From assembly GCA_023382335.1 (NCBI GenBank), contig JAMCPM010000020.1, positions 1 through 64,000 of the forward strand: 64,000 nt of DNA. Reading direction: 5' to 3'. The position numbers and the translations under genes are program-made. Positions 7,211 through 55,439 of this stretch are shown piece after piece (within the stretch, counting starts at the first letter, position 1; each line of letters begins with the position of its first letter). The notes beneath the pieces are model-generated. The model was not told the origin of the DNA, searched no databases, and saw only the letters and a list, made by a program, of their open reading frames with translations. This DNA is from Actinomycetota bacterium. Its GTDB lineage: Bacteria; Actinomycetota; Thermoleophilia; BMS3ABIN01.

Positions 7211-7241
7211 TTATATCTGACCTCCTATAAGGTATTGGAAT

Positions 7242-8450: not shown

Positions 8451-8510
8451 TCCTGCTCTCCTTTACTTTGATTGCGTTTGCTTGGGATATATTCAGACGG
8501 CTGGTGAGGT

Positions 8511-9779: not shown

Positions 9780-9808
9780 TACGACCTCTCAATCTCTGAG
9801 ATAGACAT

Positions 9809-10630
9809 TTAGCCCAACACCTCGTCCAGTGCCGCCTGTTGCCTGGAAAGGCCCAGGTAGAACACGTTCGGCTTGAGCTCCAGATTGGACCGGAGTACCT
9901 GGGCGTTGCCCGAGGCGACCTGCTTGGCGACGGTGGTCTTCTCGTCATCGCGGTTGCCGAAGGTCAGCGCCTGCTTGGGGCACTGTTCCACGCAGGCCGG
10001 CAGCTCGCCGGCGTCGAGGTCCTTGTGAGCACAGAAAGTACACTTGGTGGCTACGCCCAGCATCATCGCCGGCACCTTGGCGTTCTGATCCGCCCGGGGC
10101 ACCGGATTGTCGCGGAAGACGATAGTCCTGGCCCGGTAGGGACAGGCGATGACACAATAGCGGCAACCGATGCAGCGATGCTCGTCGATGAGGACGATAC
10201 CGTCCTTCTCACGGCGGAACGAAGCCTTGGTTGGGCAGACGTGAACGCATGGAGGTTCAGTGCAGTGCACGCACAGCAGCGGTATCGGGCGCGGTTCGAT
10301 CTCGGCGCCCGGCACCTCCTGAGTCATCTCGCCGACGCGGATCCAGTAGGGCGTGTAGCGCTTGGCGTCTTCGCCGTAAAAAGCCTGGAGATCCGGAACG
10401 TTGTTCTCGTTGCGGCAGGCTTGCTCGCAAACCTTGTAATCGAGCTGGTTGCAGCCGTCGCACTTGTTGAGGTCGACAGTCATGGAGTACTGCAGGGACG
10501 TGTTGTTCGTATTGCTGGAGGCCATGCCCGAGGTCACCAGCAGCTGTGATGCCGGCATTGCGGCGCCGGCCGCGGCGATCAAGCCGCCAAGCTTGAGAAA
10601 CGTCCTTCTATCCATTCCTTCGTTAGCCAT
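9809..10630 (-). CDS. dsrO: DsrO, periplasmic iron-sulfur subunit
   Basis: The protein starts with a twin-arginine signal (D-R-R-T-F-L-K, followed by an A-rich hydrophobic stretch) and then carries the four-cluster ferredoxin pattern of the DmsB/NrfC group: CDGCNQLDYKVCEQAC, CVHCTEPPCVHVCP, CIGCRYCVIACP and CTFCAHKDLDAGELPACVEQCP. It is the Fe-S subunit of DsrMKJOP and is exported folded through the Tat system. A longer frame upstream to 10723 exists but would overlap dsrJ by about 50 bases and would bury the Tat motif; the ATG at 10630 is preferred. The first cluster has the D-G-C-N form seen in DsrO. Confidence 0.93.
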   Translation of the reverse strand: MANEGMDRRTFLKLGGLIAAAGAAMPASQLLVTSGMASSNTNNTSLQYSMTVDLNKCDGCNQLDYKVCEQACRNENNVPDLQAFYGEDAKRYTPYWIRVGEMTQEVPGAEIEPRPIPLLCVHCTEPPCVHVCPTKASFRREKDGIVLIDEHRCIGCRYCVIACPYRARTIVFRDNPVPRADQNAKVPAMMLGVATKCTFCAHKDLDAGELPACVEQCPKQALTFGNRDDEKTTVAKQVASGNAQVLRSNLELKPNVFYLGLSRQQAALDEVLG

Positions 10631-10674
10631 TGCAGACCTTTTCTCCCTTGGTTTTGATAAGGCCGAGCCGCGGG

Positions 10675-11094
10675 CTAGAAGCCCTGGGGCCGGGGAAGCC
10701 TGTCCTCTTCTGTTGAATGACATCCACCGGTCTGGTCGAAACAGCCGGGTTCAACGCCGTTGTAGCTGTGGCACTGCTGGCAGAAGTCCTTGTAGTTGTG
10801 GCAAGTGAAGCAAGCCTCGATAGTGAGGCGGTTGCCCGGCGTCGGGTTGCCTTCCCTTACCACTTTTACGCGCTCGTCTTTAAGAAGCTGCTGGTGGTTG
10901 AGCCGCATGTAGTCCTTGGTCTCCTGCCGGGTGCCGCCAACCGGCTCGACGCACTGCTTGGCGTCGGCGTCAGTGCCCGCGGTCAGATCGGGCTTGGTGT
11001 CGGGGTTGAACAGCTTGCCGCTGGCCGCGTTCACCAGGAACGGCGAAGCCAGGACCAGCAGGAAGATGATGGTCGCTATCACTGCCTTTTTCAT
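10675..11094 (-). CDS. dsrJ: DsrJ, periplasmic multiheme cytochrome c
   Basis: The 139-residue protein has an N-terminal export/anchor segment (about 5-23) and two clear heme c sites, CFTCH and CQQCH. A third heme, present in known DsrJ, would be expected near the C-terminus, but here the spacing is C-F-D-Q-T-G-G-C-H, six residues between the cysteines instead of two. The conserved Q-C-V-E-P stretch that supplies a cysteine heme ligand in characterised DsrJ is present at about residue 48. It overlaps dsrK by four bases (ATGA), which supports tight co-translation. Confidence 0.92.
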   Translation of the reverse strand: MKKAVIATIIFLLVLASPFLVNAASGKLFNPDTKPDLTAGTDADAKQCVEPVGGTRQETKDYMRLNHQQLLKDERVKVVREGNPTPGNRLTIEACFTCHNYKDFCQQCHSYNGVEPGCFDQTGGCHSTEEDRLPRPQGF

Positions 11095-12671
11095 TGTTTC
11101 GCCCCCAGTTCGATGGCGTTAGCAATGAGCTGATGTACACCGCCGGCTACTTCCATGCTGACACCATACTTGGGAAGGATCTTGGTGAACTGCGCCTTGC
11201 AGATGGCGCAGATGAGGGCGATGAAGTTGGCTCCGTGAGTTTCCTGCACCTTGCCGAAGGCCTGCATTCTCGGCATGGCGCCCTGAACCCGCAGTTCGAG
11301 CAGATCGTCGGTCAGCAGACCGCCGCCGCCGCCACAACAGAAGGTCTTCTCCATGATGGTGTCCTGATCCATCTCCACGTAGCGGTTGCAGCTGGCCTTG
11401 ATCAGGTCACGCGGGATGGTGAACTGCCCGCCCGGCTTGTCGCCCATGCGGGCGCCCCGGGCCACGTTGCAGGAATCGTGCATGGTGGGGACCAGATGGT
11501 CGTTCTGGGATTTATCGAGCTTGATGCCGCCCCGGTTGACCAGGTCGAGTGTGAACTCGCAGATGTGCTGGGGCCGTTTGTACTTGGGATCGAGCGAATC
11601 GAAGGGCCCGATTATCGTGTTCCAGAAGGAATAGGCGACGCGCCAGGCATGGCCGCACTCGCCGACGATCAGGCGCCTTGGCTTGATCTCACGGATAGCG
11701 TCATTTACTCGTGACGCAAGTTTCTGCATGTGCGAATAGTTCCCGATGAACATGCCGAAGTTGCCGGCCTCGGAGGCCGCCGAGCTGAAGGTCCAGCTGA
11801 TGCCGGCCTGGTGGAACACCTTGGCGTAACCCAGGAGCGACTCGACGTGCGGGGAAGCGAAGAAGTCGGCCGACGGCGTTACCATCAGGACTTCAGCCCC
11901 CACCTGGTCGAGCGGCAGCTTGATTTTCTGGCCGGTCTCTTCCTCGAGGTCTTCTTCTGTCGATTCGAGCGTGGCCTTCAGGGCCTTGGGGTTCATGCCG
12001 AGGTTGTTGCCCACGTCGTGGACCTTGGCGATGATGTCGTTGGTGTACTTCTGGCCCACGCCGATGTGATCCATGATCTCGCGGGCAGCCATGGAGATCT
12101 CGGCCGTGTCTATGCCATAAGGGCAGAAGACCGAGCAGCGCCGGCACTGCGAGCACTGGTGGAAATAGCTGTACCACTCACCGAGCAGCTCGAGGTCGAA
12201 CCTCTCAGCTCCGGCGAGCTTGCCGAGGATCTTGCCCTCGGTGGTGAAATACCTGCGGTAGACCTTGCGGAAGAGCTCCGCGCGGGCAACCGGCATGTTG
12301 TTGCCGTCCTGGGTGCCAATGAAATAATGGCACTTGTCGGTGCAGGAGCCGCACTTGACGCATATGTCCATGTAGACCTGCAGCGACTTGTACTTCTTGA
12401 GCAGATCGGCCATCTTGGCGATGGCGGCGTCGTGCCAGTCCTCACGCAGGTTGGCCGGGAAGCCGAGCTTGGTCATCGTCTCTGATTTGCAGAGATAGGG
12501 CTTGTGATTGGCGACGTCCTCATGGACCTTGGGAATCTTGAACGAGCCGGTCAGCTCGTCGCCGTGCACGTCCTTCGGCTTCTTCCTGGGAACAGCCGGT
12601 TCGCCGACCTTTTCCAGGTCGGTTAAAACTTTTGGTTCTTCTTCTGTTACTGTCGCCTCGTTATCTGCCAT
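11091..12671 (-). CDS. dsrK: DsrK, HdrD-like cytoplasmic iron-sulfur subunit
   Basis: The 526-residue protein has a ferredoxin domain (C-x2-C-x2-C-x3-C starting at about C104, then CSQCRRCSVFC) and a CCG-domain region ending in F-C-C-G-G-G-G-G, with the earlier D-S-C-N-V-A-R-G. This is the pattern of HdrD/DsrK, the subunit thought to oxidise or reduce the DsrC thiol/disulfide pair at a special [4Fe-4S] site. The N-terminal 50 residues are charged and probably flexible. The next upstream gene is dsrC, its physical partner, rather than dsrM. Confidence 0.95.
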   Translation of the reverse strand: MADNEATVTEEEPKVLTDLEKVGEPAVPRKKPKDVHGDELTGSFKIPKVHEDVANHKPYLCKSETMTKLGFPANLREDWHDAAIAKMADLLKKYKSLQVYMDICVKCGSCTDKCHYFIGTQDGNNMPVARAELFRKVYRRYFTTEGKILGKLAGAERFDLELLGEWYSYFHQCSQCRRCSVFCPYGIDTAEISMAAREIMDHIGVGQKYTNDIIAKVHDVGNNLGMNPKALKATLESTEEDLEEETGQKIKLPLDQVGAEVLMVTPSADFFASPHVESLLGYAKVFHQAGISWTFSSAASEAGNFGMFIGNYSHMQKLASRVNDAIREIKPRRLIVGECGHAWRVAYSFWNTIIGPFDSLDPKYKRPQHICEFTLDLVNRGGIKLDKSQNDHLVPTMHDSCNVARGARMGDKPGGQFTIPRDLIKASCNRYVEMDQDTIMEKTFCCGGGGGLLTDDLLELRVQGAMPRMQAFGKVQETHGANFIALICAICKAQFTKILPKYGVSMEVAGGVHQLIANAIELGAKQ

Positions 12672-12778
12672 TGAAATGCTTTCCTTTCGGAGACAAAAAG
12701 CGTCACTGACGGCACGTTAGAGCAGCCACGGCCGCTTCCGCACAAAGGAATTTGCGCCCACCCAAAAACTGGAATGGA

Positions 12779-12810
12779 GGCCGGCCTCGCCGGTACCGGT
12801 CCGGCCGGCC
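12779..12810 (-). promoter_or_regulatory. GC-rich hairpin between dsrC and dsrK
   Basis: GGCCGGCC at 12779-12786 and again at 12803-12810 (self-complementary) enclose an inner CCGGTACCGG palindrome. The fold is very stable, lies about 40 bases past the dsrC stop and has no T run on the minus strand. It could protect a dsrMC 3' end, act as a processing site or reduce read-through into dsrK. The function is inferred. Confidence 0.5.
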
Positions 12811-12849
12811 ACCATGTTACAACTACGCCCTAAATGAAACCGGGGTTGC

Positions 12850-13182
12850 CTAGACGCAACCGGTCGGCTTCGGGAGCCCGGCGATCTTGCAGGCCTGGAG
12901 GGCCGGACCGGCGGGATAAAGGTCATACAGGTACGCGCTGTTGCCCTTCTCGGGGCCGAACATCTTCTTCATTTCCTTGATCAGGATCTTGATGGCCGGA
13001 GCGATGTTGTATTCCTCGTAGTAACCGCGCAGGAAATTGACGACTTCCCAATGCGCATCCGTCATCTCGACTCCCTCCATCTCGGCGATGTGGGCGCCGA
13101 CGTCCTCCGTCCACTCGTCCAGATTGATCAGATAGCCGTCGTCGTCTGTCTCGTACGTCTTTCCGTTAAGCTCAAAGCTCAT
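12850..13182 (-). CDS. dsrC: DsrC, sulfur carrier protein
   Basis: The 110-residue protein is DsrC/TusE-type with both functional cysteines of true DsrC: the penultimate cysteine and the one eleven residues before it (C-x10-C in ACKIAGLPKPTGCV). DsrC carries sulfur from sulfite on DsrAB as a trisulfide, which the membrane complex then reduces. Conserved surroundings such as H-W-E-V-V-N-F-L-R and Y-L-Y-D-L-Y-P-A-G-P are present. An AGGAGG-like site lies before the ATG (AGGAGGATTC). It stands between dsrM and dsrK, an unusual place. Confidence 0.97.
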   Translation of the reverse strand: MSFELNGKTYETDDDGYLINLDEWTEDVGAHIAEMEGVEMTDAHWEVVNFLRGYYEEYNIAPAIKILIKEMKKMFGPEKGNSAYLYDLYPAGPALQACKIAGLPKPTGCV

Positions 13183-13332
13183 TTTAAGAATCCTCCTGTG
13201 TTGTGGCTTTGCCTTATCAGTCCCGGGAAGCCTTTTGTCCCCGGTTATATTAAGAGAGCATGCAGCTCGCAGGAGCGCCCTCGCTTAACCATCTATCATC
13301 GGGGACATGATCTCGTTCGCGTCCCCGGTCAC

Positions 13333-14094
13333 CTATCCTGAAGAAGCCTCCATGGCTTCCTCTACTACCGGGATGGCCTCCGGCCTCTCTACCGCCCACG
13401 GAGTCACAAGACGCTTCTCACGCGGGTTGTCCACCTGGTTGCGGGTCGGGCTGAAGAAGAGGCCAGCCGCGTGCATAAGCTTGCTGAAGGGGAAGTAGGC
13501 CAGCAGCACCAGCACCAGGCTAAAGTGGATGACGAACATCACCTGTGTAGGCATATCAACCGGCTGGAACGCGATCAGGCCCATCATGAATTCCTTGACC
13601 TGGGTGATATCCACCCGAAAGAAGTGCTTGGCGAAGGTGCCGGTGGTGGCGATGGCGATCAGCAGCACCAGCAGGAAGTAGTCGGTCATCACGGAGATGT
13701 ACATGTGCCTGTCGACGACCAGCCTCAACAGGAACAGCAGTCCCAGGCCGCCGAGCATGATCAGGCCGGGATAAAATTCGAGTGTGTCGAGATAACCAAA
13801 GCCCGCGGGAACAGCCGGGAAGAAGAAACGGAAGTGCTTGAGGAGGGCAAGAAGCAGACCGGCGTGGAAGAGATAGCCGGCGAGCCATAGCACGCGGTTG
13901 CTCTTGAACAGGCTCTTGAAGATCACTACTTCGGAGAGGACCCGCACCGGAACACCAGCAGCACCGACCGGAGCCGGCGTCTGCGGAATCTTGAGGGGGC
14001 TCGGCGTCGTGGCGTACTTCCAGACCTTGAAGAGCACCCCGATGACGAAAATCGCCATCACTGCATAACCAAGAATTACGAATAAGACTGTCAA
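13333..14094 (-). CDS. dsrM: DsrM, cytochrome b membrane subunit
   Basis: The 253-residue membrane protein is NarI-like, with about six hydrophobic helices and histidines in helices that can bind heme b (Y-L-F-H-A-G, L-K-H-F-R and the H-F-S-L-V-L and K-L-M-H-A-A-G pairs). DsrM anchors DsrK and exchanges electrons with menaquinone. The start is a TTG with GGGAAGAGG upstream; no in-frame ATG lies nearby. The size is that of the shorter DsrM forms. It is the first gene of the operon after the promoter at 14324-14352. Confidence 0.92.
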   Translation of the reverse strand: MTVLFVILGYAVMAIFVIGVLFKVWKYATTPSPLKIPQTPAPVGAAGVPVRVLSEVVIFKSLFKSNRVLWLAGYLFHAGLLLALLKHFRFFFPAVPAGFGYLDTLEFYPGLIMLGGLGLLFLLRLVVDRHMYISVMTDYFLLVLLIAIATTGTFAKHFFRVDITQVKEFMMGLIAFQPVDMPTQVMFVIHFSLVLVLLAYFPFSKLMHAAGLFFSPTRNQVDNPREKRLVTPWAVERPEAIPVVEEAMEASSG

Positions 14095-14218
14095 ATGCTC
14101 ACACCTCTTCCCTTTTCACTGGAGAGTTTGCACTCTACGGACTGAGTTGGAAAGGAAAACCGTACTAAAAAACCACCCTGGCCTGATATTGCCTACGATA
14201 CCCCCGGGAGCATTGGCA

Positions 14219-14248
14219 AAGATATCACGCTGGTTCGGAATGTGTCAA
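14219..14248 (-). promoter_or_regulatory. second possible promoter in the dsrM leader
   Basis: On the minus strand TTGACA (14248-14243) is followed after 18 bases by TATCTT (14224-14219), about 125 bases before the dsrM start. The -35 is perfect, the -10 moderate. Confidence 0.4.
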
Positions 14249-14323
14249 ACAAAAAGAGACAAAGCCCGCCCGGCCAGCGCGATCTGCTGGCATGATACCT
14301 CAGAGGGTATACGGAGTAAATGG

Positions 14324-14352
14324 AATCTACACCCGATTGGTTTTCTTGTCAA
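14324..14352 (-). promoter_or_regulatory. sigma70-type promoter for the dsr operon
   Basis: On the minus strand TTGACA (14352-14347) and TAGATT (14329-14324) are separated by exactly 17 bases. The -35 begins 8 bases after the dsrN stop, so dsrM can be transcribed independently of dsrN. Transcription would start near 14317 and leave a leader of about 220 bases that contains a GCCAGC...GCTGGC hairpin (14272-14290). Confidence 0.65.
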
Positions 14353-14359
14353 TAGTCCT

Positions 14360-15727
14360 TCAGCGCTTTTTTTCCACGAACTCCACGAAGCCCTCAGCCC
14401 AGCCTTCCGAGCCCAGGCTGTGGAGGTGCGTGTAGGACGCGAGGACGTTCCGGTAGAGAATTCCGTCGTGGTTTTTGTCGACGCCGGTGCCGCGCAGGAC
14501 GCGGTAGGCAAAACCGGTTTTGGCCGTGTCGAGCCCGATCACCTCGGAGTAATGGAACTCGTGCCCGCGGATCTTCAGCCCCGGCGCGAACCAGCTGCTC
14601 TCGCCCTCGGCCTCGAGCTCCATGTAGCCATGCCCGCGCGGCTTTTCGTGCATGAGGATGTCGCAGGGCAGCGCCCCCACCATCTCGCGGTGCTTTCCCT
14701 CCCAGGTCATCTTCCCGGAAAGGTACATGAGGCCGCCGCATTCGGCGTAGACGGGCATGCCGCCCTCGATCGCCCGGCGGATCTCGCCCCTGAGGCCGCT
14801 GTTTGCCTCCAGTTCCTCCATGAAGACCTCGGGGAAGCCGCCGCCGATGTAGAGTCCGTCGACGTCGGGCAGTTTGCTGTCAGCCAGCGGGCTGAAGGGG
14901 ATGAGCCCGGCGCCGGCGACACGCAGGGCCTCGAGGTTTTCCGGATAGTAAAAGGTGAAGGCGCGGTCCTGGGCGACGCCGAGGCGCACCCGGGGCTCGG
15001 GGAAGGGCTGCTGCGCGGTATCGATTGCTTGTAGGGGCGGGGCTGTGGCCGCGATGGCGCGGATGCGGTCGACGTCGACGCTGGCGCTGATCAGTTTTTC
15101 GATCTGGGCGACGACCTCTGCCGAGCCCAGCGCCTCGCGGGCCGGTTGCAGTCCCAGGTGCCGCTGGATGATCTCGATCTCGGGGCGGCGGCGGATGGCG
15201 CCGACAACCTCGACGTCGGTGTAGCGCTCCAGCACCTTGCGCAGCTTGTCCTCGTGGCGCGGGCCCGAGACCTTGTTGAGGACTACAGCGGCGATATCGA
15301 TGTCAGGCTCGAAATTGGTGAACCCCTGGATCAGCGGCGCGATCGAGCGGGTCATGTTGCGCGTGTTCACGACCAGGATGACCGGCGCCCGCAGCTGGCG
15401 GGCAAGGTCGGAGGTGCTGCCGCGGCCCTCGACGTCGACGCTGTCGAACAGGCCCATGTTTCCTTCCGCCAGGGCGATGCCGGCGCCGGCGCCGTTGCGG
15501 GCGACCGACTTGAGGATCTCCTCGTCTCCCATCATGAACTGGTCGAGATTGCGGCAGTCGCGCCCGGCGGCGGCCGTCAGCCACATGGGATCGATGAAGT
15601 CCGGGCCCTTCTTGAAGGGCTGCACCTCCAGGCCGGCGGCGCGCAGGGCGGCGCAGAGCCCGATGCTCACGGTGGTCTTACCGGAGCTGCGGTGGGGTGC
15701 GGAGATTACCAGTCTGGGAAGATCCAT
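14360..15727 (-). CDS. dsrN: DsrN, siroheme/cobyrinate amidating enzyme (CbiA-type)
   Basis: The product (about 455 residues) has an N-terminal dethiobiotin-synthetase-like ATPase domain with S-A-P-H-R-S-S-G-K-T-T and a C-terminal class I glutamine amidotransferase domain with the nucleophile in Y-A-E-C-G-G-L-M-Y-L-S-G. This is the cobyrinic acid a,c-diamide synthase (CbiA/CobB) family. In dsr loci the homologue DsrN is thought to amidate siroheme for DsrAB; its place directly upstream of dsrM supports that reading. A true cobalamin-pathway CbiA cannot be ruled out. The ATG at 15727 is preferred because P-R-L-V-I-S-A-P follows directly; the frame is open 78 bases further upstream. Confidence 0.8.
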   Translation of the reverse strand: MDLPRLVISAPHRSSGKTTVSIGLCAALRAAGLEVQPFKKGPDFIDPMWLTAAAGRDCRNLDQFMMGDEEILKSVARNGAGAGIALAEGNMGLFDSVDVEGRGSTSDLARQLRAPVILVVNTRNMTRSIAPLIQGFTNFEPDIDIAAVVLNKVSGPRHEDKLRKVLERYTDVEVVGAIRRRPEIEIIQRHLGLQPAREALGSAEVVAQIEKLISASVDVDRIRAIAATAPPLQAIDTAQQPFPEPRVRLGVAQDRAFTFYYPENLEALRVAGAGLIPFSPLADSKLPDVDGLYIGGGFPEVFMEELEANSGLRGEIRRAIEGGMPVYAECGGLMYLSGKMTWEGKHREMVGALPCDILMHEKPRGHGYMELEAEGESSWFAPGLKIRGHEFHYSEVIGLDTAKTGFAYRVLRGTGVDKNHDGILYRNVLASYTHLHSLGSEGWAEGFVEFVEKKR

Positions 15728-15782
15728 GAGAGATATTCTCGCACGGGCGCGGTTTGAGGGCCAAGCGGGTAGGATAACTTCC

Positions 15783-15824
15783 ATGAGCGATTCCGGGACT
15801 TCCATGAGCGATTCCGGGACTTCC
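15783..15824 (+). repeat. 21-bp tandem repeat at a gene start
   Basis: Two identical 21-bp units (ATGAGCGATTCC plus 9 bases) run from 15783 to 15824, each carrying an in-frame ATG; a degenerate third unit follows to about 15845. Confidence 0.85.
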
Positions 15825-45648: not shown

Positions 45649-46506
45649 CTATAGTTCTTCCGGCAGCTCCCGCAGCTCCTGCAGCGAGAACACCGGCCCG
45701 TCGGTGCAGACATATTTGGGACCGAGGTTGCAGCGGCCGCAGATGCCGATGCCGCATTTCATCCGCCGTTCAAGCGTAGTATAAATCTGTTCTTCCCGGA
45801 AGCCCATTTTGCTTAAACTCTGCAACGTGAACCTGATCATGATCGGCGGGCCGCACGTGACGGCGACCGAGTTCTCCGGGGAAGGCCCCCGCTCCTCGAG
45901 CACGTTGGGCACCAGCCCGACGCAACCGTCCCAGCCCTCGCAGGCGGCGTCGATGGTGGCGGTGAAATCGAGGCCGGAGCGCTGTTGCCAGTCGGCCCGG
46001 CCGGCTTCGTAGCAGAGGTCCGCGGGCGTGCGGGCGCCGTAGACCAGAGTCAGTTCGCCGTAATCGCCGCGATTGTCGAGCAGGTGGAACAGCAGTGAAC
46101 GCAACGGCGCCATGCCGATGCCGCCGGCGACCAGCACGATGTTCTTGCCCTTCCATTCATCAGTGGGAAAGCCACAGCCCATGGGGGCGCGCACGGCGGT
46201 CCGGTCGCCCGCGGCCAGCTCATGGATGGCGCCGGTGACGACGCCGGCCTTCATGATCGAGAACTCAAAGCTTCCGGAGCCTGACGGCGCCGAGGAAATG
46301 GCGAAGGTCGACTCGCCGGCTCCCAGCACGCTCAACTGGCCGATCTGCCCGGGCAGAAAGCTGAAGGCTTCCATCACCGAGGGGTCGTCGAAGGCCAGCC
46401 GGAGCGTCCTGATGTTCGGAGTCTCCTGGATGACCTCGAGCACCGTGGCCGGCTCGGGCCTCAGCGGCTCGGTTGATTTCCTTCCTGCCTGTGCTATGGT
46501 CGTCAT
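45649..46506 (-). CDS. flxA: FlxA-like FAD/NAD(P)H-binding subunit with [2Fe-2S] site
   Basis: The 285-residue protein is of the ferredoxin-reductase type: an FAD domain with A-I-S-S-A-P, an NAD(P)-binding domain starting G-G-I-G-M-A-P-L-R-S-L, and a terminal C-x4-C-x2-C-x8-C motif (C-G-I-G-I-C-G-R-C then C-T-D-G). Such subunits occur in sulfhydrogenases (HydG), anaerobic sulfite reductase (AsrB) and the Flx complex. The operon with hdrABC favours FlxA, the NAD(P)H entry. It overlaps the gene before it by four bases. Confidence 0.75.
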   Translation of the reverse strand: MTTIAQAGRKSTEPLRPEPATVLEVIQETPNIRTLRLAFDDPSVMEAFSFLPGQIGQLSVLGAGESTFAISSAPSGSGSFEFSIMKAGVVTGAIHELAAGDRTAVRAPMGCGFPTDEWKGKNIVLVAGGIGMAPLRSLLFHLLDNRGDYGELTLVYGARTPADLCYEAGRADWQQRSGLDFTATIDAACEGWDGCVGLVPNVLEERGPSPENSVAVTCGPPIMIRFTLQSLSKMGFREEQIYTTLERRMKCGIGICGRCNLGPKYVCTDGPVFSLQELRELPEEL

Positions 46507-47582
46507 TTGTCAGTCTCCGCCTTGCCGCCATCGGCCATCAATTCCGTTTCTACGGCTCTGGCCTTTGCCGCCCGCAAAACTTCGCGGATGTCAAGATTGG
46601 TGGGGCAGCCGCGGATGCAGCGGCCGCAGCCGGTGCAGAGCGTCTCGCCCTGGTTGACCGGGTAGTAGCTGAACTTGTGGTTGATACGATTGCGGTAACG
46701 GTGCGCCTGGGTCGGCCGCGGATTGTGTCCCGAGGCTTCCTGTGTGTAGACATAGAACATGCAGGCGTCCCAGCTGCGAAGACGCTCGCCCTTGCGATCG
46801 CCGCTCATCTCGTCATGGATGTTGAAGCAGTAGCATGTCGGGCAGCCGTGCGAGCAGAAACCGCAGGAGATGCAGGTCGCGGTGATCTCATTCCAGAAGT
46901 CCAGATCCTTGAAGATGGCCGGCAGCTGCTGTTGCAGACCGTCAAGGCCTTCGACTGTCGCCGTCTCCGCCAGCTGCGGCGGCTCGGCGTTTGATTCCTC
47001 GAAAAATCGAGTAGCGGCGTCAAGGATCGATTCGCCTCTCGCGGTCACGGCTTCAGCCAGATAGCCGCCTTCGAGCGGATACAGGATGAGGTCCGAGCCC
47101 GCCTTCCCGGCGGGGCCCTCGCCAAAGGACGAGCAGAAGCAGGCGGCGTCAGCGGTAGTACAGGCCAGAGTAATGACCGTAAGCGCCCGGCGGCGGGCCT
47201 GATAGTTGGGGTCGTTGTAAGATTCGCTTTCGGGATTGTCAAAGAGCGCGTCCAGAACCGTCAGCGCTTTGGCGTCGCAAGCCCGTGCGCCGAACAGAAC
47301 CGTCGCCGGGGCTGTGACCGCCGCTACGATCTCGATGTTTTCCCCGGGTACGGGGTCGCCGAAAGCATAGTTGAAATCAAAGAGCTTCTCCGTGCGTGGC
47401 AGCACCACGTCCTTGGCCGAGATCGAAGTGATGTGCTCCAGATCGACAGCCACGCCGTTTTGCCAGCGCTCGAAGATCGCGGTGCCGGTGCCGGCGAGTT
47501 CGCGCGGCGCCCAGACCTCGGCGTCTTCAGCCAGCTGTTCCAGCAGTCGCGCTATATTGTCATTTTTGATGATTTTCGTCAT
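46503..47582 (-). CDS. flxB: FlxB-like 4Fe-4S subunit (AsrA/HydB-like)
   Basis: The 359-residue protein has a cysteine-poor N-terminal domain with G-A-R-A-C-D-A-K-A-L and C-F-C-S-S-F, followed by two ferredoxin clusters: C-I-S-C-G-F-C-S-H-G-C-P and C-T-G-C-G-R-C-I-R-G-C-P. It resembles the beta subunits of sulfhydrogenases and AsrA, which relay electrons from the flavin subunit. The flxB name is by position and similarity only. Confidence 0.65.
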   Translation of the reverse strand: MTKIIKNDNIARLLEQLAEDAEVWAPRELAGTGTAIFERWQNGVAVDLEHITSISAKDVVLPRTEKLFDFNYAFGDPVPGENIEIVAAVTAPATVLFGARACDAKALTVLDALFDNPESESYNDPNYQARRRALTVITLACTTADAACFCSSFGEGPAGKAGSDLILYPLEGGYLAEAVTARGESILDAATRFFEESNAEPPQLAETATVEGLDGLQQQLPAIFKDLDFWNEITATCISCGFCSHGCPTCYCFNIHDEMSGDRKGERLRSWDACMFYVYTQEASGHNPRPTQAHRYRNRINHKFSYYPVNQGETLCTGCGRCIRGCPTNLDIREVLRAAKARAVETELMADGGKAETDK

Positions 47583-47601: not shown

Positions 47602-48609
47602 TCATTCCCCGCTCCAGGAATCGCCCTTTATGCTGAAAGTGAGCAGCGGCGGCCGCGCTTCAGGATCGGCCCCGGCCCGGTAACCAAAAAGCTCCTCGAC
47701 GGCGCGGTTCTGCTCCTCCATCAACAGCATCAGCGGGATGCCCATGGGACAGGCGCGCTCACACTCGCCGCAACCGGTACAGCGGCCGGCAAGATGGTTT
47801 ACCCGGATGAGCTGCATCATCTCCGCCTCGCGTGCGCCGGCGCCGCCGCCGGTCCAGTGAGGCTCCATCGTCTGCATGATACAGACATCGCGGCAGAAAC
47901 ACATCGGACAGGCCTCGCGGCAGGCATAGCAGCGGATGCACTTCGCATATTGCTGCCGCCAGAAGCCGCTTCGCTCGGCCGGGCTCATGGCCTGGAACTC
48001 AGCCCGCAGCGACCGGGTTTCGCCGGCGCCGCTGCCCGCCGCGCCGCTAGCCGCGCCGCTTTCTGCAACGCCGGCGCCATCGGTCATCAAAGACGCCTCG
48101 TTTCCGCCAGAAAGCGCCGGCATGCCCCCGGCCTCATAAATTTCGTCACTGATCACCGGCTCGCTTTCACCGCAATCCAGGCACTTGTGCCTGAGGAAAC
48201 CGGCGCGGTCAACTACAGCCCCGTTGATGCTTAGTGAATCCATGCTAGATACTATCTCCGCTCCGTAGCTGAACTGTTGCCAGATTTTTCTGACGTCCAC
48301 AGTGCCGCCGCATCCCCCCACGCCGATCACCCTGACGGCCGCCCTGTCGACCGCCCTCTCCTGTACAAGCTGCACGATGCTCCTGCAGTCGCATGCCTTG
48401 GCGACGATGCCGACCCGTTTGCCCTTCAGACGCGGCAGATGCACGGCAAGATTATGAACGCAGGTGGCGTCGAATACCGCTCTTTCCGCATCTTCGGCGG
48501 TCTGGAACCTGGCCGGCGCCGCCGTGCCGCCGGCGCCGCCGGCATCCCAGCCGAGCACGGTGTCATATTCTTCCAAAACCTTTTTTATGATGGCGGGCAG
48601 GCCGCTCAT
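47602..48609 (-). CDS. flxC: FlxC-like FrhB-type iron-sulfur subunit
   Basis: The 335-residue protein has features of the FrhB/FdhB beta-subunit group: A-C-D-C-R-S-I-V-Q-L near residue 75, a C-G-E cluster region (K-C-L-D-C-G-E-S-E), and C-I-R-C-Y-A-C-R-E-A-C-P-M-C-F-C plus C-T-G-C-G-E-C-E-R-A-C-P. An A/G/S-rich linker (about 172-195) joins the halves. It probably links FlxAB to HdrA through FlxD. It overlaps the next upstream gene by four bases. Confidence 0.65.
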   Translation of the reverse strand: MSGLPAIIKKVLEEYDTVLGWDAGGAGGTAAPARFQTAEDAERAVFDATCVHNLAVHLPRLKGKRVGIVAKACDCRSIVQLVQERAVDRAAVRVIGVGGCGGTVDVRKIWQQFSYGAEIVSSMDSLSINGAVVDRAGFLRHKCLDCGESEPVISDEIYEAGGMPALSGGNEASLMTDGAGVAESGAASGAAGSGAGETRSLRAEFQAMSPAERSGFWRQQYAKCIRCYACREACPMCFCRDVCIMQTMEPHWTGGGAGAREAEMMQLIRVNHLAGRCTGCGECERACPMGIPLMLLMEEQNRAVEELFGYRAGADPEARPPLLTFSIKGDSWSGE

Positions 48610-49001
48610 CGCTCACCCAGCGAGTTGATGCGCTCGGAGAATTCAGTGACGACTTCGGCCCAGCGCGAACCTTCCGACGCGCTCACCCAGGTGTAAAGAA
48701 ACCGCTCCGGCTCGATGCCATAGGCGGGCAGCATCCGCTGCAGCAGCTCCAGGCGGCGGCGGGCATAATAATTGCCCTCGTTGTAATGGCAGTCGCCGGG
48801 ATGGCAGCCGCTGACCAGCACGCCATCCGCGCCCTCATGAAAAGCCTTGAGGATCAGCAGCGGATTCACCCGCCCGGTGCAGGGCATGCGCACGATGCGC
48901 AGCTCGCCGGGCTGCTTCAGCCGCGCCGTGCCGGCCATGTCGGCCCCGGCATAAGAGCACCAGTTGCAAAGAAATCCTATTAGCTTGAGGTCAGACACCA
49001 C
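48606..49001 (-). CDS. flxD: MvhD/FlxD-type hydrogenase iron-sulfur subunit
   Basis: The 131-residue protein has the MvhD pattern: G-F-L-C-N-W-C-S-Y-A-G-A-D near the start, M-P-C-T-G-R-V, and S-G-C-H-P-G-D-C-H-Y. MvhD carries a [2Fe-2S] cluster and docks an electron donor onto HdrA. Here the donor is probably the NAD(P)H-oxidising Flx unit, as no hydrogenase genes are near. Confidence 0.85.
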   Translation of the reverse strand: MVSDLKLIGFLCNWCSYAGADMAGTARLKQPGELRIVRMPCTGRVNPLLILKAFHEGADGVLVSGCHPGDCHYNEGNYYARRRLELLQRMLPAYGIEPERFLYTWVSASEGSRWAEVVTEFSERINSLGER

Positions 49002-49034: not shown

Positions 49035-50993
49035 TCACCGCAGCAGCTCCATAGTCTCGGCGAGCAGCTGCTTGTCCGTATAGCCTTTTAGTGATATAAC
49101 CGCCGGCGGGCAGGCGACGTTGCAGACGCCGCAGCCCTGGCAGAGCGAATCGATCACCGAAGCCACTTCGCTTCCGTCCCACAGCTCCACCGCCTCAATG
49201 GCGCTGTAAGGGCACACGTCCCGGCATTTGAAACAGCCGGTGCAGCGCCTCTGGTCGACGGCCGCCACCATGGGATTGGTCTCGAGCTCGCCCTTCGACA
49301 GCAGGCCGATAACCTTGGCCGCCGCCGCGCTGGCCTGCGCCACCGAATCGGGGATATCCTTGGGACCCTGGCAGGCTCCCGCCAGGAAGATGCCGCCGGT
49401 GTTGGTCTCCACCGGACGCAGCTTGGGATGGCTCTCGGACATGAACTCGTACTGGTCATAAGAGATGTTGAGCTTGCGCGCCAGCCCCGCGGCGCCCTTC
49501 GATGCCGCAAATCCTGTCGCCAGCACCACCAGGTCGGCCTCGATCTCAACCGGCTCGCTTGAGAGCGTGTCGGTGCCCATGACCATCAGCTTGCCGCCCT
49601 TGGGATAGACCTTGCCGACGCGGCCGCGCAGGTAGATGGCGCCAAACTCGCGCTGCGCCCGCCTGGTGAATTCCTCATAACCCTTGCCGCCGGCGCGTAT
49701 GTCTATATAGAAGACATAAGACTGCGAATCGGGAATGTGTTCCTTGGTCAGGATCGCCTGCTTGGCCGTGTACATGCAGCCGACGCTGCAGCAGAACGGC
49801 CTACCCACGGATTCGTCCCGCGAGCCGACGCAGGAAATAAAGACGATGTTCTTTGGCTCCTCATTATCGGACGGCCGCTTGACTTGACCTCCCGTCGGGC
49901 CCGACGCCGAGAGCATGCGCTCGTATTGCAGGGAAGTGACCACGTCGGGATACTGGCCGCCGCCGTAATCAGGATAGGCCTCGCGCCAGTCGAAGAGCTC
50001 GTAGCCCGTGGCCACGACGATGGCGCCGAATCTTTCGGTGACCACGCGCTCTTCCTGTTCGTAATCGATGGCGCCGGCCGGGCAGACTTTTTTGCAGATG
50101 CCGCATTTGCCCTTGATGAACTGGCGGCAATATTCCTTGCGTATCGTCGCCACCATCGGCACCGCCTGGGGGAAGGGAATGGAGATCGCCCGCGACAGGC
50201 TGACGTCGGCATTGAACTCATCCGGCGCCCGGTTGGGGCACTTCTCCATGCAGAGCATGCAGCCGGTGCATTTGTCTTCGCTGACGCAGGTCGCCCGCTT
50301 GCGGATATCGACCTCGAAGTTGCCTATATATCCCCGCACCTGGTCAACCTCTGAGTTGACCATGAGGGAGATGTTCTCGTGCTGGTTGGCTTCGACCATC
50401 CTCGGCGTGAGGATGCACGAGGAGCAGTCAAGCGTGGGGAAAGTCTTGTCCAGCCGCGCCATGTTGCCGCCGATCGACGGCCCCCGCTCCACCAGCGTGA
50501 CCGGCAGTCCCGAATCGGCGATGTCAAGCGCCGCCTGGATGCCGGCGATGCCGCCGCCGATGACCAGGACCCTGCCGGTGACCGGCACCGTACTCGAAGA
50601 CAGCGGCGCCTGGCCGCGCACCCTGGCGACACCCATGCGCATCAGATCGACCGCCTTGTCAGTGGCGACATCCATATCGGAATGGATCCAGGAGCAGTGC
50701 TCGCGGATATTGACCATGTCCATCATGTAAGGGTTCATGCCGCCGCGGCTGACCGTGCGCCGGAATGTGGCCTCGTGCATCCGCGGCGAGCAGGCAGCAA
50801 TCACAACGCGGGTAAGCCCCTTCGCCTGCACCGCCTCGATAATGGCGCGCTGGCCGGGATCGGAGCAGGTGTACTGCAGGGTCTCGGCATGCGCCACGTC
50901 GCGCATCGATTGCGCCGCCGCCACGACCTTTTCCGTGTCGACGGTGGCGGCGATGTTGGTGCCGCATTGACAGATAAAGACGCCGATACGCAT
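49035..50993 (-). CDS. hdrA: HdrA, flavin-containing heterodisulfide reductase subunit
   Basis: The 652-residue protein has an N-terminal Fe-S domain (I-C-Q-C-G-T-N-I), an FAD site V-I-G-G-G-I-A-G-I-Q, the H-drA cysteine pattern C-S-S-C-I-L-T-P and F-C-C-S-V-G-C, one ferredoxin insert and two C-terminal [4Fe-4S] clusters (C-T-G-C-F-K-C-R-D-V-C-P, C-Q-G-C-G-V-C-N-V-A-C-P). HdrA is the flavin centre for electron bifurcation. Cysteine, not selenocysteine, is coded throughout. It starts four bases after the hdrB stop. Confidence 0.94.
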   Translation of the reverse strand: MRIGVFICQCGTNIAATVDTEKVVAAAQSMRDVAHAETLQYTCSDPGQRAIIEAVQAKGLTRVVIAACSPRMHEATFRRTVSRGGMNPYMMDMVNIREHCSWIHSDMDVATDKAVDLMRMGVARVRGQAPLSSSTVPVTGRVLVIGGGIAGIQAALDIADSGLPVTLVERGPSIGGNMARLDKTFPTLDCSSCILTPRMVEANQHENISLMVNSEVDQVRGYIGNFEVDIRKRATCVSEDKCTGCMLCMEKCPNRAPDEFNADVSLSRAISIPFPQAVPMVATIRKEYCRQFIKGKCGICKKVCPAGAIDYEQEERVVTERFGAIVVATGYELFDWREAYPDYGGGQYPDVVTSLQYERMLSASGPTGGQVKRPSDNEEPKNIVFISCVGSRDESVGRPFCCSVGCMYTAKQAILTKEHIPDSQSYVFYIDIRAGGKGYEEFTRRAQREFGAIYLRGRVGKVYPKGGKLMVMGTDTLSSEPVEIEADLVVLATGFAASKGAAGLARKLNISYDQYEFMSESHPKLRPVETNTGGIFLAGACQGPKDIPDSVAQASAAAAKVIGLLSKGELETNPMVAAVDQRRCTGCFKCRDVCPYSAIEAVELWDGSEVASVIDSLCQGCGVCNVACPPAVISLKGYTDKQLLAETMELLR

Positions 50994-50996
50994 GGC

Positions 50997-51971
50997 CTAG
51001 CTCACCGCCTTCCTGCTTCCCCGTCCGCTCTCTTTTCCATCCAGGGCGTCCCGGCCACCGCCCCGCTCGATCTTCGCGATCAGCTTGCGGGCGCTGACAA
51101 CGTGCGCGAGGATGCCGAGGTCGTCGGCCTTGAATCCCAGCGCCAGCCCCAGCACCTGTGAAAAATAAAGCACCGGGATATCCAGCGAGGTCCCGAATGT
51201 CTTGTTGATCTGCTCCTGGCGCAGGTCAAGATTTTGATGGCACAGGGGGCAGACGGTGACGATGGCGTCAAAGCCCATGTCCTGGGCCACCTCGATGATG
51301 CGCCGGCTGGCCCGCAGGACAATCTCCTTCTTGGCCAGCCCCATGTAGGAGCCGCAGCACTCGCTCTTAAAAGGGAAGTGAGTGGCCTGGGCTCCGGTGG
51401 CCCAGAGCAGCGGCTTCATGCTGGCGGGGTTGCGCGGATTATCAAATTTGAGGATGCTCGCCGGACGTGTCAGCAGGCAGCCGTAATAAGTCGCCAGTTT
51501 TATTCCCGCCAGGCGGCCCTGCGCGCGTTCCGCCAGCGCCTCGGGCTGCACCGCCCGGCCAAAGAATTGGACCAGATTCAAAATCTCGGTCTGGTAGCGC
51601 ACGGGCTCGCCGAAGATCCGCTCGGCCTGCATGCGGATATCCTCGCTTTGCTCCAGCTGGTACTGGGCGTTCTTGAACCGGTTATAGCAGCCGGCGCAGG
51701 GAGCCACCATGGCGTCATGCGAAGCCGACGCCAGGTGCAGGTTGCGCGCCGGCAGCAGCACGCCCAGGTTTCCTCCCCAATGATGGGGCGCCGGCGAAGC
51801 GCCGCAGCAGTTCCAGTCTTCGACCTCGTCGAGGTGTATGCCCAGCTCGCGCGCAACCAGCCTGAAAGATGCGTCGTACTCGCCGGCCGAGCCCGTCAGG
51901 GAACAACCGGGGAAGTAGGAATAGCCGGTCGCGGCATTTCCCGCGATTGATTTTTCTTCGTTCGGGCTCAC
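50997..51971 (-). CDS. hdrB: HdrB, CCG-domain subunit
   Basis: The protein (324 residues) starts at a GTG that overlaps the hdrC stop (GTGA), with AGGAAG upstream. It carries two CCG motifs: N-C-C-G-A-S-P with its upstream cysteine in P-G-C-S, and E-C-C-G-S-Y-M-G with Y-Y-G-C; a C-P-L-C-H follows. These bind the non-cubane [4Fe-4S] clusters that cleave a disulfide. The substrate here is unknown; DsrC is a plausible one. A longer frame further upstream reads through hdrC and is not real. Confidence 0.94.
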   Translation of the reverse strand: MSPNEEKSIAGNAATGYSYFPGCSLTGSAGEYDASFRLVARELGIHLDEVEDWNCCGASPAPHHWGGNLGVLLPARNLHLASASHDAMVAPCAGCYNRFKNAQYQLEQSEDIRMQAERIFGEPVRYQTEILNLVQFFGRAVQPEALAERAQGRLAGIKLATYYGCLLTRPASILKFDNPRNPASMKPLLWATGAQATHFPFKSECCGSYMGLAKKEIVLRASRRIIEVAQDMGFDAIVTVCPLCHQNLDLRQEQINKTFGTSLDIPVLYFSQVLGLALGFKADDLGILAHVVSARKLIAKIERGGGRDALDGKESGRGSRKAVS

Positions 51972-52537
51972 TTCATCTTCCTGTCGCCGTTGACTTCGCG
52001 GAAGATCCGGTGCACCTGCTCGCGGTTCTTGATGCGAGGCGGGATGACGTGCACCTTTTTCTTCCTGAGGATCAGGGGCACCAGGCTGAAATCGTTGAAA
52101 GGATTGAAGGTGCGGAGGTTCATCCAGGTCAGCAGCCTTGCCTCGTGCAACCGGCCGTGCCGGCGGACGTTCTGCAGAAATGCCCGGCGGAAAAGCCGGA
52201 TCTCTTTCTCCCCGCCTTCGATGCCGCGCTCGTCGGCGATCATTTTTGCCTGCTCGATGACGTTGGCGACATCGATGTTCATGGGGCAGCGCGAGGAGCA
52301 GGTCATGCAATCGAAACAGAGCTGTGCCGTGCGCGAGCCCAGGACTTTGTCAACCTGGCCCAGCTGCAGCAACCGCATGATGCGATGTGGCGGATAATCA
52401 AAAGCAAAAGCGGCGGTGCACGTCGAGGTGCAGCGGCCGCACTGGTAACAGGCCGAGACGCTCTCGCCCGAGCGGCGCTCGATCTCGGCGACGATGGTGG
52501 CGCCATCAGCAACGGTCTGTGATACCGGGATAGTCAA
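51968..52537 (-). CDS. hdrC: HdrC, ferredoxin-like subunit
   Basis: The 189-residue protein has two [4Fe-4S] sites (C-Y-Q-C-G-R-C-T-S-T-C and C-F-D-C-M-T-C-S-S-R-C-P) that relay electrons from HdrA to HdrB. The start is a TTG preceded by GGAGG at 4 bases. It is the first gene of the hdrCBA-flxDCBA operon. The C-terminal part (K-K-K-V-H-V-I-P-P-R) is basic. Confidence 0.93.
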   Translation of the reverse strand: MTIPVSQTVADGATIVAEIERRSGESVSACYQCGRCTSTCTAAFAFDYPPHRIMRLLQLGQVDKVLGSRTAQLCFDCMTCSSRCPMNIDVANVIEQAKMIADERGIEGGEKEIRLFRRAFLQNVRRHGRLHEARLLTWMNLRTFNPFNDFSLVPLILRKKKVHVIPPRIKNREQVHRIFREVNGDRKMK

Positions 52538-52639
52538 GAGGCCTCCGTTCCCATCCTCCCCCTGTCAGCAAAAACCCGTCGGCGTCAGACTTCCCTGCGC
52601 GTATCCGTCAAACGCAGCCTTACAGGTGGGCCAACGAGA

Positions 52640-52678
52640 TTGTGAAACTTTTAACAAAATATGTGAAAATTTTAACAG
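52640..52678. promoter_or_regulatory. two tandem Rex-type operators
   Basis: TTGTGAAACTTTTAACAA (52640-52657) is an 18-bp inverted repeat of the TTGT(T/G)AA-N4-TTAACAA Rex type. ATGTGAAAATTTTAACAG (52661-52678) is a second copy with changed end bases. Their centres are 21 bases apart, two helical turns. They cover the -10 element and start region of the hdr-flx promoter, so an NADH-sensing Rex repressor would block transcription when NADH is low relative to NAD+. Confidence 0.7.
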
Positions 52679-52697
52679 CCTAATTGGGGTAAGTCAA
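52669..52697 (-). promoter_or_regulatory. promoter of the hdr-flx operon
   Basis: On the minus strand TTGACT (52697-52692) and TAAAAT (52674-52669) are 17 bases apart. Transcription would begin near 52662, leaving a 125-base leader before the hdrC start. Confidence 0.65.
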
Positions 52698-52768
52698 TAT
52701 TCTTTAGGGAAGCTGTGAATTCGGGGAGGATGCAGGGAAATCTGGCATCAGCAGATCAGGGCGGCACG

Positions 52769-52818
52769 AATCGGGAGCCACGGAAGGTCCCTGCCGCCAC
52801 TCTCCGCGGCTCCCGATT
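52769..52818 (-). terminator. hairpin after the propeller-protein gene
   Basis: AATCGGGAGCC (52769-52779) pairs perfectly with GGCTCCCGATT (52808-52818) over a 28-base loop. It lies 36 bases past the stop of the upstream minus-strand gene. No T run follows, so it may stabilise the 3' end or act as a weak terminator. Confidence 0.45.
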
Positions 52819-52853
52819 ATTAATGAAGAATAATACCGGGTACCCCGGGCCGT

Positions 52854-55439
52854 TTAACTCGGCTCGTTTCCTGCCACCTCATTGAAGAAACCGTTCCAGA
52901 TCACCCGCTGCGAGGTGATGGAGGCTTCGGGGGTGTTAAAACTGGCGTCGCTGAAAGTGTCGACTTCCACCGGGCCCCCCATGGTGCCCGGGAATGTTGG
53001 TGTGACATTGCTACCCGCAGCGATGGGACCACCAGTGGAAACGACATCGCCGGCAACCTTGATCCGGTAATAAATCGGATTGAGTGTCGGATTGGCGATC
53101 AGCACCCAGTTCCTGGCGCCCGGGCTTTGCTGGTCATACCAGGTCCACATGTGGTTTGCGCTCAAATCAACCTTGGGAATGCCGGGTACTTCCTCGAACG
53201 ATGGACCCCAGATCACCCGCTGGGAAGCGATGGCAGGAGTGGCCAATTGATGGCCTGAGTCGGAGAAGGTCCGCACCTCGACCGGTCCACCTATGGTGCC
53301 GGGGAAAGAAGGCGTGTCATTGGCGCCGGCGGCAATGGGCCCGCCGTTTTTCACCACGTTACCGGCCACCTTGATCTCATAATAGATGGACCCGCTGCCA
53401 GGGTTGGCTATGAGCACCCAGTTCCTGGCGCCCGGGCTCTGCTGGTCGTACCAAGTCCAGTAGTAATGAGCATCGAGGCTGTCCGCGGGGACCCCAGGCA
53501 CTTCATTAAAGGCGGTGTCACCGTTGATGAGCACCCGCTGCGAGGCCATCACGTAGGCCGGCACGCCGCCGCCGACCGAGTCAGACCAGGCTTCGACCTC
53601 TACCGGACCGCCCATGACGCCAGCGAAGCGCGGGGTTATATTGGCGCCTGGGGCCAGACTGCCGCTGGCGCGTTCCGTGCCGGCGATTTTTATCCGGTAA
53701 TAGACCGGGTTGAGCCCGGGATTGTTGACCAGGACCCAGTTCTTGTAACCAGAACTCTGTTCGTCGTACCAGGTCCAGTAAAAGTGATTGGAGAGTTTCC
53801 GCGAATCGGTGCCCACGACCTCCTCCAGCGAATTGCCAGCCCAGAGGATGCGCTGGGAGGTAAGGACTCCCGAGCGGGAATGGGCGCCCACATCGACGGG
53901 ACCACCCATGACGCCCGTATACCGGGCGTTGAGCGACATGCCCGGCGGCACCTGAGCAGCGTTTTTACCGGGTAGCGCCGGCAATGTCCTGACCTGGCCG
54001 GCGATTGTCAGGTCGAACCAGGCATCGCCCGAAGCTGACGAAGGATTAGCCATGAGGATCCAGTTCGCGGCATAGACATTGTCATACCAGCTGAAGGCCG
54101 TATTGGCGTCGCTGTGCCTGATAAAGATTTGCCTGGGGGACGGAGTCGCCCCGCCGGGCACGAGATTTGAAGAGCTGGATGCGAAGACGACCAGCCGCCC
54201 ATCGGCGGATATGGGCGAATGCGACCAGCAGTCGCCGCCGGCGTCTCCCCCAACGCCGGCGATATCGGTCGAGACGCGAACGGTGTCGCCGGTAACTGTA
54301 TCGTTGACAAAGACATCCGGCGAAGCATTGGTGTCTCCCGGCACCAGATTGGTGGCATTCGATTCGAAAACCACGTAGCGGCCATCGCCGGAAATACCGG
54401 CGTACACGCTTTGATTATCTGATTCAGTAGTACCATCAGAGGCAAGTGATGCCCGGATCACGCTGCCATCCTGCAGGTCTTTTCTGAAGACGTCCCACTG
54501 TCGATTGGCGTCTCCGGAAAGCAGGTTCGACGCAGCGGATGCGAAGACGATGTAGCGCCCGTCATTTGAAAATGCCGGGTCCGCGCTCCTGCCGTTGCCT
54601 TCGGCTCGCGCCTGGCTCGTGGAGGCCCTGGTTGTCGTCCCGGTCGATAAGTCCTTCACGAACACGTCCTCAACCGCGTTGGTATCACCCGCTACCAGGG
54701 TGGTGCTGGTCGAGTCAAAGGCCACGTAGCGTCCATCCGGGGATATGGAGGGATCGTCATGGCGGCCCCCGGTCTCGGCGCCCGAAGATGTGGTCGAAGC
54801 CCTGGTGGTTGTTCCTGCCGGGATGTCCCTCACAAAAACGTCCTCGGCCGCGTTAGTGTCGTTCGGGACCAGGTTGGTCGCCTGCGATAAAAAAGAAACA
54901 ATCTGGCCGTCAGCGGAGATGGAAGCTTCGTAGCTGGCAAGATCTGCTTCCACGCCCGCGCCGCTGACGCTTATTCTTATGGTAGCTCCCGTCAATGTAT
55001 CCTTCCGGAAAATATCGGTAACTCCATTATTGTCGCCTGGGACCAGATTGGAAGCCATCGATTCAAAAAGCACGTAGCGTCCGTCACCCGAGATGGCGGG
55101 AAATGTACAGTACCCGTTTGCCTCCACTCCCTCAGAGCTTGTCGAGACACGAGTAATCGCCCCGGTCTGCGTATCCTTGACGAAAACATCCTGGGCTGCA
55201 TCGGTACTTCCCGGGACCAGGTTGTCGCTGCCTTCAAAGGCGACAAACCGTCCGTCAGCGGAGATCGAAGCGCCATAGCCGCCCCAGCCGTCAGCGGGAG
55301 TGCCCGCGGCACTGGTCGAGACCCGGGAAATTATCACGGGCGCGGCGCCGGCTTCATCGGTCTTCATCAGGCCTGCAAGCAGGGCAATTCCCGCGAATAG
55401 GACAAAGAGAAATCGGGAGACTACGGAGGTGTTTGACAT
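52854..55439 (-). CDS. secreted seven-bladed beta-propeller protein with four C-terminal modules
   Basis: The 861-residue protein has a signal peptide (about 1-32). Seven repeats of about 58 residues follow, each with an I-S-x-D-G-R-x-V-x-F core, N-L-V-P-G and D-V-F-V-K-D; this is a TolB/PD40-like propeller. From about residue 440, four modules of about 105 residues each contain W-T-W-Y-D-x-Q-S-x-G, N-W-V-L-I-A-N-P, G-G-P-V-E-V, S-Q-R-V and F-N-E-V-P-G. The module is not one I can name. Cell-surface or extracellular location and a binding or wall role are inferred. AGGAGCG precedes the ATG. Confidence 0.8.
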   Translation of the reverse strand: MSNTSVVSRFLFVLFAGIALLAGLMKTDEAGAAPVIISRVSTSAAGTPADGWGGYGASISADGRFVAFEGSDNLVPGSTDAAQDVFVKDTQTGAITRVSTSSEGVEANGYCTFPAISGDGRYVLFESMASNLVPGDNNGVTDIFRKDTLTGATIRISVSGAGVEADLASYEASISADGQIVSFLSQATNLVPNDTNAAEDVFVRDIPAGTTTRASTTSSGAETGGRHDDPSISPDGRYVAFDSTSTTLVAGDTNAVEDVFVKDLSTGTTTRASTSQARAEGNGRSADPAFSNDGRYIVFASAASNLLSGDANRQWDVFRKDLQDGSVIRASLASDGTTESDNQSVYAGISGDGRYVVFESNATNLVPGDTNASPDVFVNDTVTGDTVRVSTDIAGVGGDAGGDCWSHSPISADGRLVVFASSSSNLVPGGATPSPRQIFIRHSDANTAFSWYDNVYAANWILMANPSSASGDAWFDLTIAGQVRTLPALPGKNAAQVPPGMSLNARYTGVMGGPVDVGAHSRSGVLTSQRILWAGNSLEEVVGTDSRKLSNHFYWTWYDEQSSGYKNWVLVNNPGLNPVYYRIKIAGTERASGSLAPGANITPRFAGVMGGPVEVEAWSDSVGGGVPAYVMASQRVLINGDTAFNEVPGVPADSLDAHYYWTWYDQQSPGARNWVLIANPGSGSIYYEIKVAGNVVKNGGPIAAGANDTPSFPGTIGGPVEVRTFSDSGHQLATPAIASQRVIWGPSFEEVPGIPKVDLSANHMWTWYDQQSPGARNWVLIANPTLNPIYYRIKVAGDVVSTGGPIAAGSNVTPTFPGTMGGPVEVDTFSDASFNTPEASITSQRVIWNGFFNEVAGNEPS

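Follow-up and report, generated by a model that had tools for sequence, protein, structure and literature searches.

Predicted Rex control of an hdrCBA-flxDCBA operon through two phased, putative operators in an uncultured actinobacterium

Rex operators have been published for Streptomyces coelicolor (TGTGAACNNNTTCACA) and Staphylococcus aureus (TTGTGAAWWWWTTCACAA) (PMC5355995) as well as for Clostridiaceae (TTGTTAANNNNTTAACAA; PMC9600882), and a crystallised Thermotoga maritima operator (ATTTGAGAAATTTATCACAAAA) belongs to the Rex ternary complex that serves as the reference for contact residues (PMC8836258). According to PMC4215793, which cites Ravcheev 2012, the Desulfovibrio Rex regulon includes sulfate-reduction genes and rnf; for the same organisms, NADH is proposed to be oxidised with ferredoxin and DsrC taking up the electrons. 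In Solidesulfovibrio fructosivorans, a Rex site has been predicted at the electron-bifurcating hydrogenase Hnd (PMC10084766).

Here, we describe a comparable arrangement in a window of 64,000 nucleotides, the whole stretch of DNA analysed, from an actinobacterial genome of 2,452,407 bases (2.45 Mb; 23 contigs, 99% complete), which we compared with a family sample of 19 genomes from 7 genera of uncultured Thermoleophilia. A preliminary description had placed two tandem palindromes, 21 bases apart, at a TTGACT-17-TAAAAT promoter of the hdr-flx genes; both palindromes were located, and the promoter was recovered by a scan on the minus strand, directed towards hdrC:

52640..52657, minus strand: putative proximal Rex operator, TTGTTAAAAGTTTCACAA on the coding strand, at about +6 to +23; perfect consensus match
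52661..52678, minus strand: putative distal Rex operator, CTGTTAAAATTTTCACAT, with the -10 inside it; perfect consensus match
52669..52674, minus strand: -10 hexamer TAAAAT with extended TG, from the promoter scan; a similar hexamer occurs across the family
52692..52697, minus strand: -35 hexamer TTGACT, from the promoter scan; TTGACT or TTGACA in 19/19 family genomes

On the forward strand the letters read TTGTGAAACTTTTAACAA at 52640-52657 and ATGTGAAAATTTTAACAG at 52661-52678, 21 bases from start to start, and the promoter (TTGACT at 52697-52692, 17 bases, TAAAAT at 52674-52669) points to hdrC at 52537. The scan, covering 52500-52900, returned 3 sites, compared with a shuffle expectation of 0.3. 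The further statement that both operators lie over the -10 and the start point holds for the distal one, which spans about -16 to +3 from the predicted start point and includes the -10; the proximal one lies just downstream, starting about 6 bases past that point. By sequence comparison, both fit the Rex consensus TTGTKAAN4TTMACAA, and their overlap with the promoter is of the kind expected for a repressor. Two features speak against a Rex reading: the half-sites are consistently unequal (TGTTAA / TTCACA), and the distal left half is partly constrained as an extended -10 too.

The palindromes precede a gene set of the following composition, of which hdrC is the first member:

51968..52537, minus strand: hdrC, first gene of the predicted regulated operon
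50997..51971, minus strand: hdrB, CCG domain, with a probable GTG start near 51971
49035..50993, minus strand: hdrA (HdrA2 model, E 9e-246)
48606..49001, minus strand: flxD / mvhD-like (FlpD PF02662)
47602..48609, minus strand: flxC-like Fe-S protein (profile/domain match)
46503..47582, minus strand: flxB-like (AsrA/HydB-type) Fe-S protein (profile/domain match)
45649..46506, minus strand: flxA, NAD- and Fe-S-binding subunit (PF00175, PF10418)

HdrA, HdrB, HdrC, FlxD and an NAD-binding FlxA are thus encoded together, the combination expected of FlxABCD-HdrABC, and the partner gene of that complex, dsrC, is also present, its product ending in a CX10C tail. The window of this Thermoleophilia-type actinobacterium also carries a dissimilatory sulfite reductase cluster:

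6179-15805: dsr cluster, with dsrAB, dsrP, dsrO, dsrK, dsrC, dsrM and a CobB-like possible dsrN
7269-8423: dsrA, in the same window as hdr-flx
6179-7051: second sulfite-reductase subunit beside dsrA, presumably dsrB

A second dsrA locus is found on contig 2, and the uncultured host is probably a sulfite-respiring actinobacterium. With dsrAB, dsrC and dsrMKOP present in the genome, an electron flow from NADH to ferredoxin and DsrC, by analogy with that proposed for Desulfovibrio, is plausible in this host.

Perfect matches to TGTKAAN4TTMACA occur twice in the entire genome, both at the hdr-flx promoter, against none for a reversed control pattern, and among 396 genomes sampled over the phylum the exact tandem pattern was found in two, both of the same genus and both at the hdr-flx promoter. 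It is these perfect matches, together with conservation, that carry the case for operators, rather than the two-mismatch search of the window, which found 3 sites where 1.9 were expected and is not significant alone. Other sites in the genome with one or two mismatches were set aside, many being intragenic and the symmetric two-mismatch count (91) barely exceeding that of the control pattern (79). One such one-mismatch site lies 2.5 kb upstream of the hemB-hemL-rex1 cluster described below, at the start of another gene, and we therefore make no claim of rex1 autoregulation. A perfect match occurs in 14 of the 19 family genomes; of the 22 such matches across the family, 20 stand at the hdr-flx promoter. 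The remaining two precede unrelated genes and were rejected, each having no counterpart in relatives: that of G004 precedes the gene of a large secreted protein of fibronectin-like type, and that of G007 lies near small genes without a redox link. The Rex regulon looks unusually small, with hdr-flx as essentially its one conserved operon. Rex is normally a global regulator, and so narrow a regulon is itself a point against reading the sites as Rex operators.

The operon's first gene, hdrC, is encoded in all 19 family genomes at an identity of at least 61%, and the Rex-type site in its promoter, whose occurrence before hdr-flx in relatives the claim of Rex control presupposes, is likewise present in 19/19. 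In the proximal operator, the right half TTCACAA is invariant throughout, as is TG..A in the left half, which reads TGTTAA in 13 genomes, TGAGAA in 3, TGTTAT in 2 and TGGGAA in 1. In other families of the class, hdrC homologues (33-47% identity) were found without a convincing operator. In several relatives, L027 and L032 among them, promoter and coding sequence overlap, the hdr -35 falling within the last mqnC codons (..IDFP-stop).

The same half-sites bear on the reading that the palindromes bind a protein of the CRP/FNR family, whose TGTGA-N6-TCACA operator has equal length and symmetry; the genome does encode one clear CRP-type helix-turn-helix protein, and a multihaem cytochrome-like gene (L010) has a perfect TGTGA-N6-TCACA site upstream. 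At the hdr promoters, however, the left halves are TGTTA or TGAGA rather than TGTGA, and TCACA is preceded by T in 19/19, the preference of CRP at that base being A. Moreover, a position over the -10 and +1 is unfit for the usual activator role, and the hdr sites show no TGTGA-N6-TCACA operator at an activator position. We regard CRP/FNR binding here as very improbable. The L010 palindrome is in its own right a CRP/FNR-type site, TGTGAATCAAGTCACA, at L010 1501-1516 (G000:C16:61585), just 5' of the cytochrome-like gene.

The tandem arrangement is narrower in distribution. A pair at exactly 21 bp is kept in 7/7 members of the genus, as phasing would predict; in G009, from another genus, the pair is degenerate and spaced at 20 bp, and the remaining eleven family genomes have a single site just past the -10. 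On the HdrC tree the tandem genomes require one change, with moderate support (78/70). In the genus, the extended -10 TGTTAAAAT serves also as a Rex half-site, and only TTTTCACA is added, which suggests that the second operator arose by adding this half-site to the extended -10. The double role of TGTTAAAAT, and the similar -10 found in sister genera that have no second palindrome, could also mean that the distal palindrome is a mere -10 plus discriminator and that there is one true operator. Against this, the right half TTTTCACA is not a promoter consensus, recurs at exactly 21 bp in every one of the seven members of the genus, and does not occur at this position in other genera, and we judge a single operator improbable. 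From single operator to phased pair, the family forms a series that lends itself to the study of how repressor sites can grow from promoter elements.

As the proposal of Rex control also presupposes, the genome encodes rex, in two paralogues, Rex1 and Rex2. Rex1 scores above the NCBIfam Rex cut-offs and is alignable with solved Rex structures; in the alignment, 10 of the 12 published T. maritima DNA contacts are identical (Arg12, Ser33, Gln46, Arg48, Lys49, Ser52, Gly58, Arg60, Gly61 and Tyr64), the changed ones being Lys43 and Glu34, a contact position that varies (PMC8836258). In its NAD pocket Tyr100 and Asp115 are kept; Asn92 and Lys120, two ADP-moiety-binding positions in T. maritima, are occupied by Lys and Val, so that the affinity for the NAD ligand could differ. 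The gene lies in a hemB-hemL-rex1-(unnamed gene)-ubiD-like-ubiA-like cluster, the names of the flanking genes having been read from their sequences except for hemL, for which relatives were found by search, and rex1 adjoins hemL in 18/18 family genomes that have hemL. In G007, a 90%-complete assembly, the operator is present and no rex was found; since hemL is absent too, the assembly probably lacks the rex locus. In Streptomyces, rex similarly lies next to hem genes. The second paralogue stands elsewhere:

G000:C11:13276-13899 (L002): rex2, flanked by dnaK-like and pyruvate-kinase-like genes

In Rex2, both the Gln-X-Arg recognition helix (QIRRDLS) and the GKRGVGY wing are conserved, and either this protein could repress hdr-flx in place of Rex1 or both could share the tandem sites. 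By alignment, however, it has Arg at the Lys49 contact and Ala for Tyr100 of the NAD pocket, and several operator-bearing family genomes, some of them incomplete assemblies, yielded no second rex. A role for Rex2 here therefore seems unlikely, and comparison of the contact and NAD-pocket residues makes Rex1 the better candidate for the binding protein.

Taken together, the rex genes, the motif in 19/19 genomes, its repressor position, the contact residues of Rex1 and the NAD-binding FlxA support the original proposal, and the palindromes are very probably operators through which Rex controls hdr-flx. We propose that NAD+-bound Rex dimers, probably of Rex1, would occupy the -10 and the first transcribed bases, blocking hdr-flx transcription. 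By membership of the Rex family, the repressor would leave the DNA as NADH rises, allowing the NADH-oxidising HdrCBA-FlxDCBA to be made, which predicts that this NADH-consuming complex is produced mainly when NADH piles up. The complex would then hand electrons to ferredoxin, which we infer as an acceptor, and probably to DsrC. One operator just past the -10 would act family-wide; in the genus, the second, over the -10 and two helical turns away, may let Rex dimers bind cooperatively along one helical face and should give tighter, steeper repression.

Directly after the proximal operator, the leader contains a further conserved element:

52570..52638, minus strand: leader hairpin with U tail, putative attenuator; 5' arm CTCGTTGGC at 52638-52630, 3' arm GCCGACGGG at 52583-52575, T-tract at 52574-52570

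This hairpin (CTCGNCGGC...GCCGNCGGG-TTTTT) is present in 16/19 family genomes; in G017 and G008 another U-tailed hairpin takes its place, and G015 carries the latter with an insertion. In an alignment of 15 sequences (G016, near-identical to G018, was left out), the nine-pair stem is formed in 90.4% of cells, versus 18-58% when slid by 1-3 columns, and two stem pairs change on both sides, a modest covariation. Single-sequence hairpin energies are mostly not unusual, stem scores against shuffles at the conserved tract give p values from 0.007 to 0.29, and an Rfam search of the leader returned no family match. Genomes with a gene other than mqnC upstream (G000, G001 and G003) retain the hairpin, which is therefore more than an mqnC terminator; as a conserved leader element and probable attenuator, it suggests a second, attenuation-type control of hdr-flx. 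In this genome, a gene for an 861-aa protein with PD40 beta-propeller repeats (52768-55439) lies between mqnC and hdrC, and a strong inverted repeat follows it at about 52768-52824. A full two-layer redox switch, combining a Rex of nearly a single operon, phased tandem operators evolved from an extended -10, and leader-hairpin attenuation by a second signal, is a tentative and somewhat doubtful extension of these observations.

The hdr-flx operators constitute a well-supported new case, by sequence comparison, of a known type of regulation, and predict that NADH/NAD+ sensing is coupled to flavin-based electron bifurcation in these uncultured dsr-bearing Actinobacteria. A literature search, with Ravcheev 2012 and Christensen 2015 outside its scope, found hdr-flx nowhere named as a Rex target. 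The TTGAGAAAACTTTCACAA variants at hdr-flx resemble the crystallised T. maritima operator (PMC8836258), and operator consensus and repressor position are like those of the Rex regulons of S. coelicolor and S. avermitilis, S. aureus and Clostridium, the Streptomyces rex-hem neighbourhood finding its counterpart in rex1 beside hemL. In contrast to these actinobacterial and Firmicutes regulons, there is here apparently one conserved target, hdr-flx, served by a phased tandem pair. As in the Desulfovibrio regulon, so far as the available text of PMC4215793 describes it, Rex would be tied to energy conservation in dissimilatory sulfur metabolism, but the target here is hdr-flx, which that text does not name as a Rex target for Desulfovibrio. 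Hnd provides a further likeness, both cases joining a predicted Rex site to a bifurcating complex linked to NAD(H), although that complex is another one, in another phylum, with a single predicted site. Finally, the Desulfovibrio FlxABCD-HdrABC (Hdr/flox) has the same kinds of subunit, likewise with DsrC in the genome, whereas here the genes are ordered hdrCBA-flxDCBA, in an actinobacterium.
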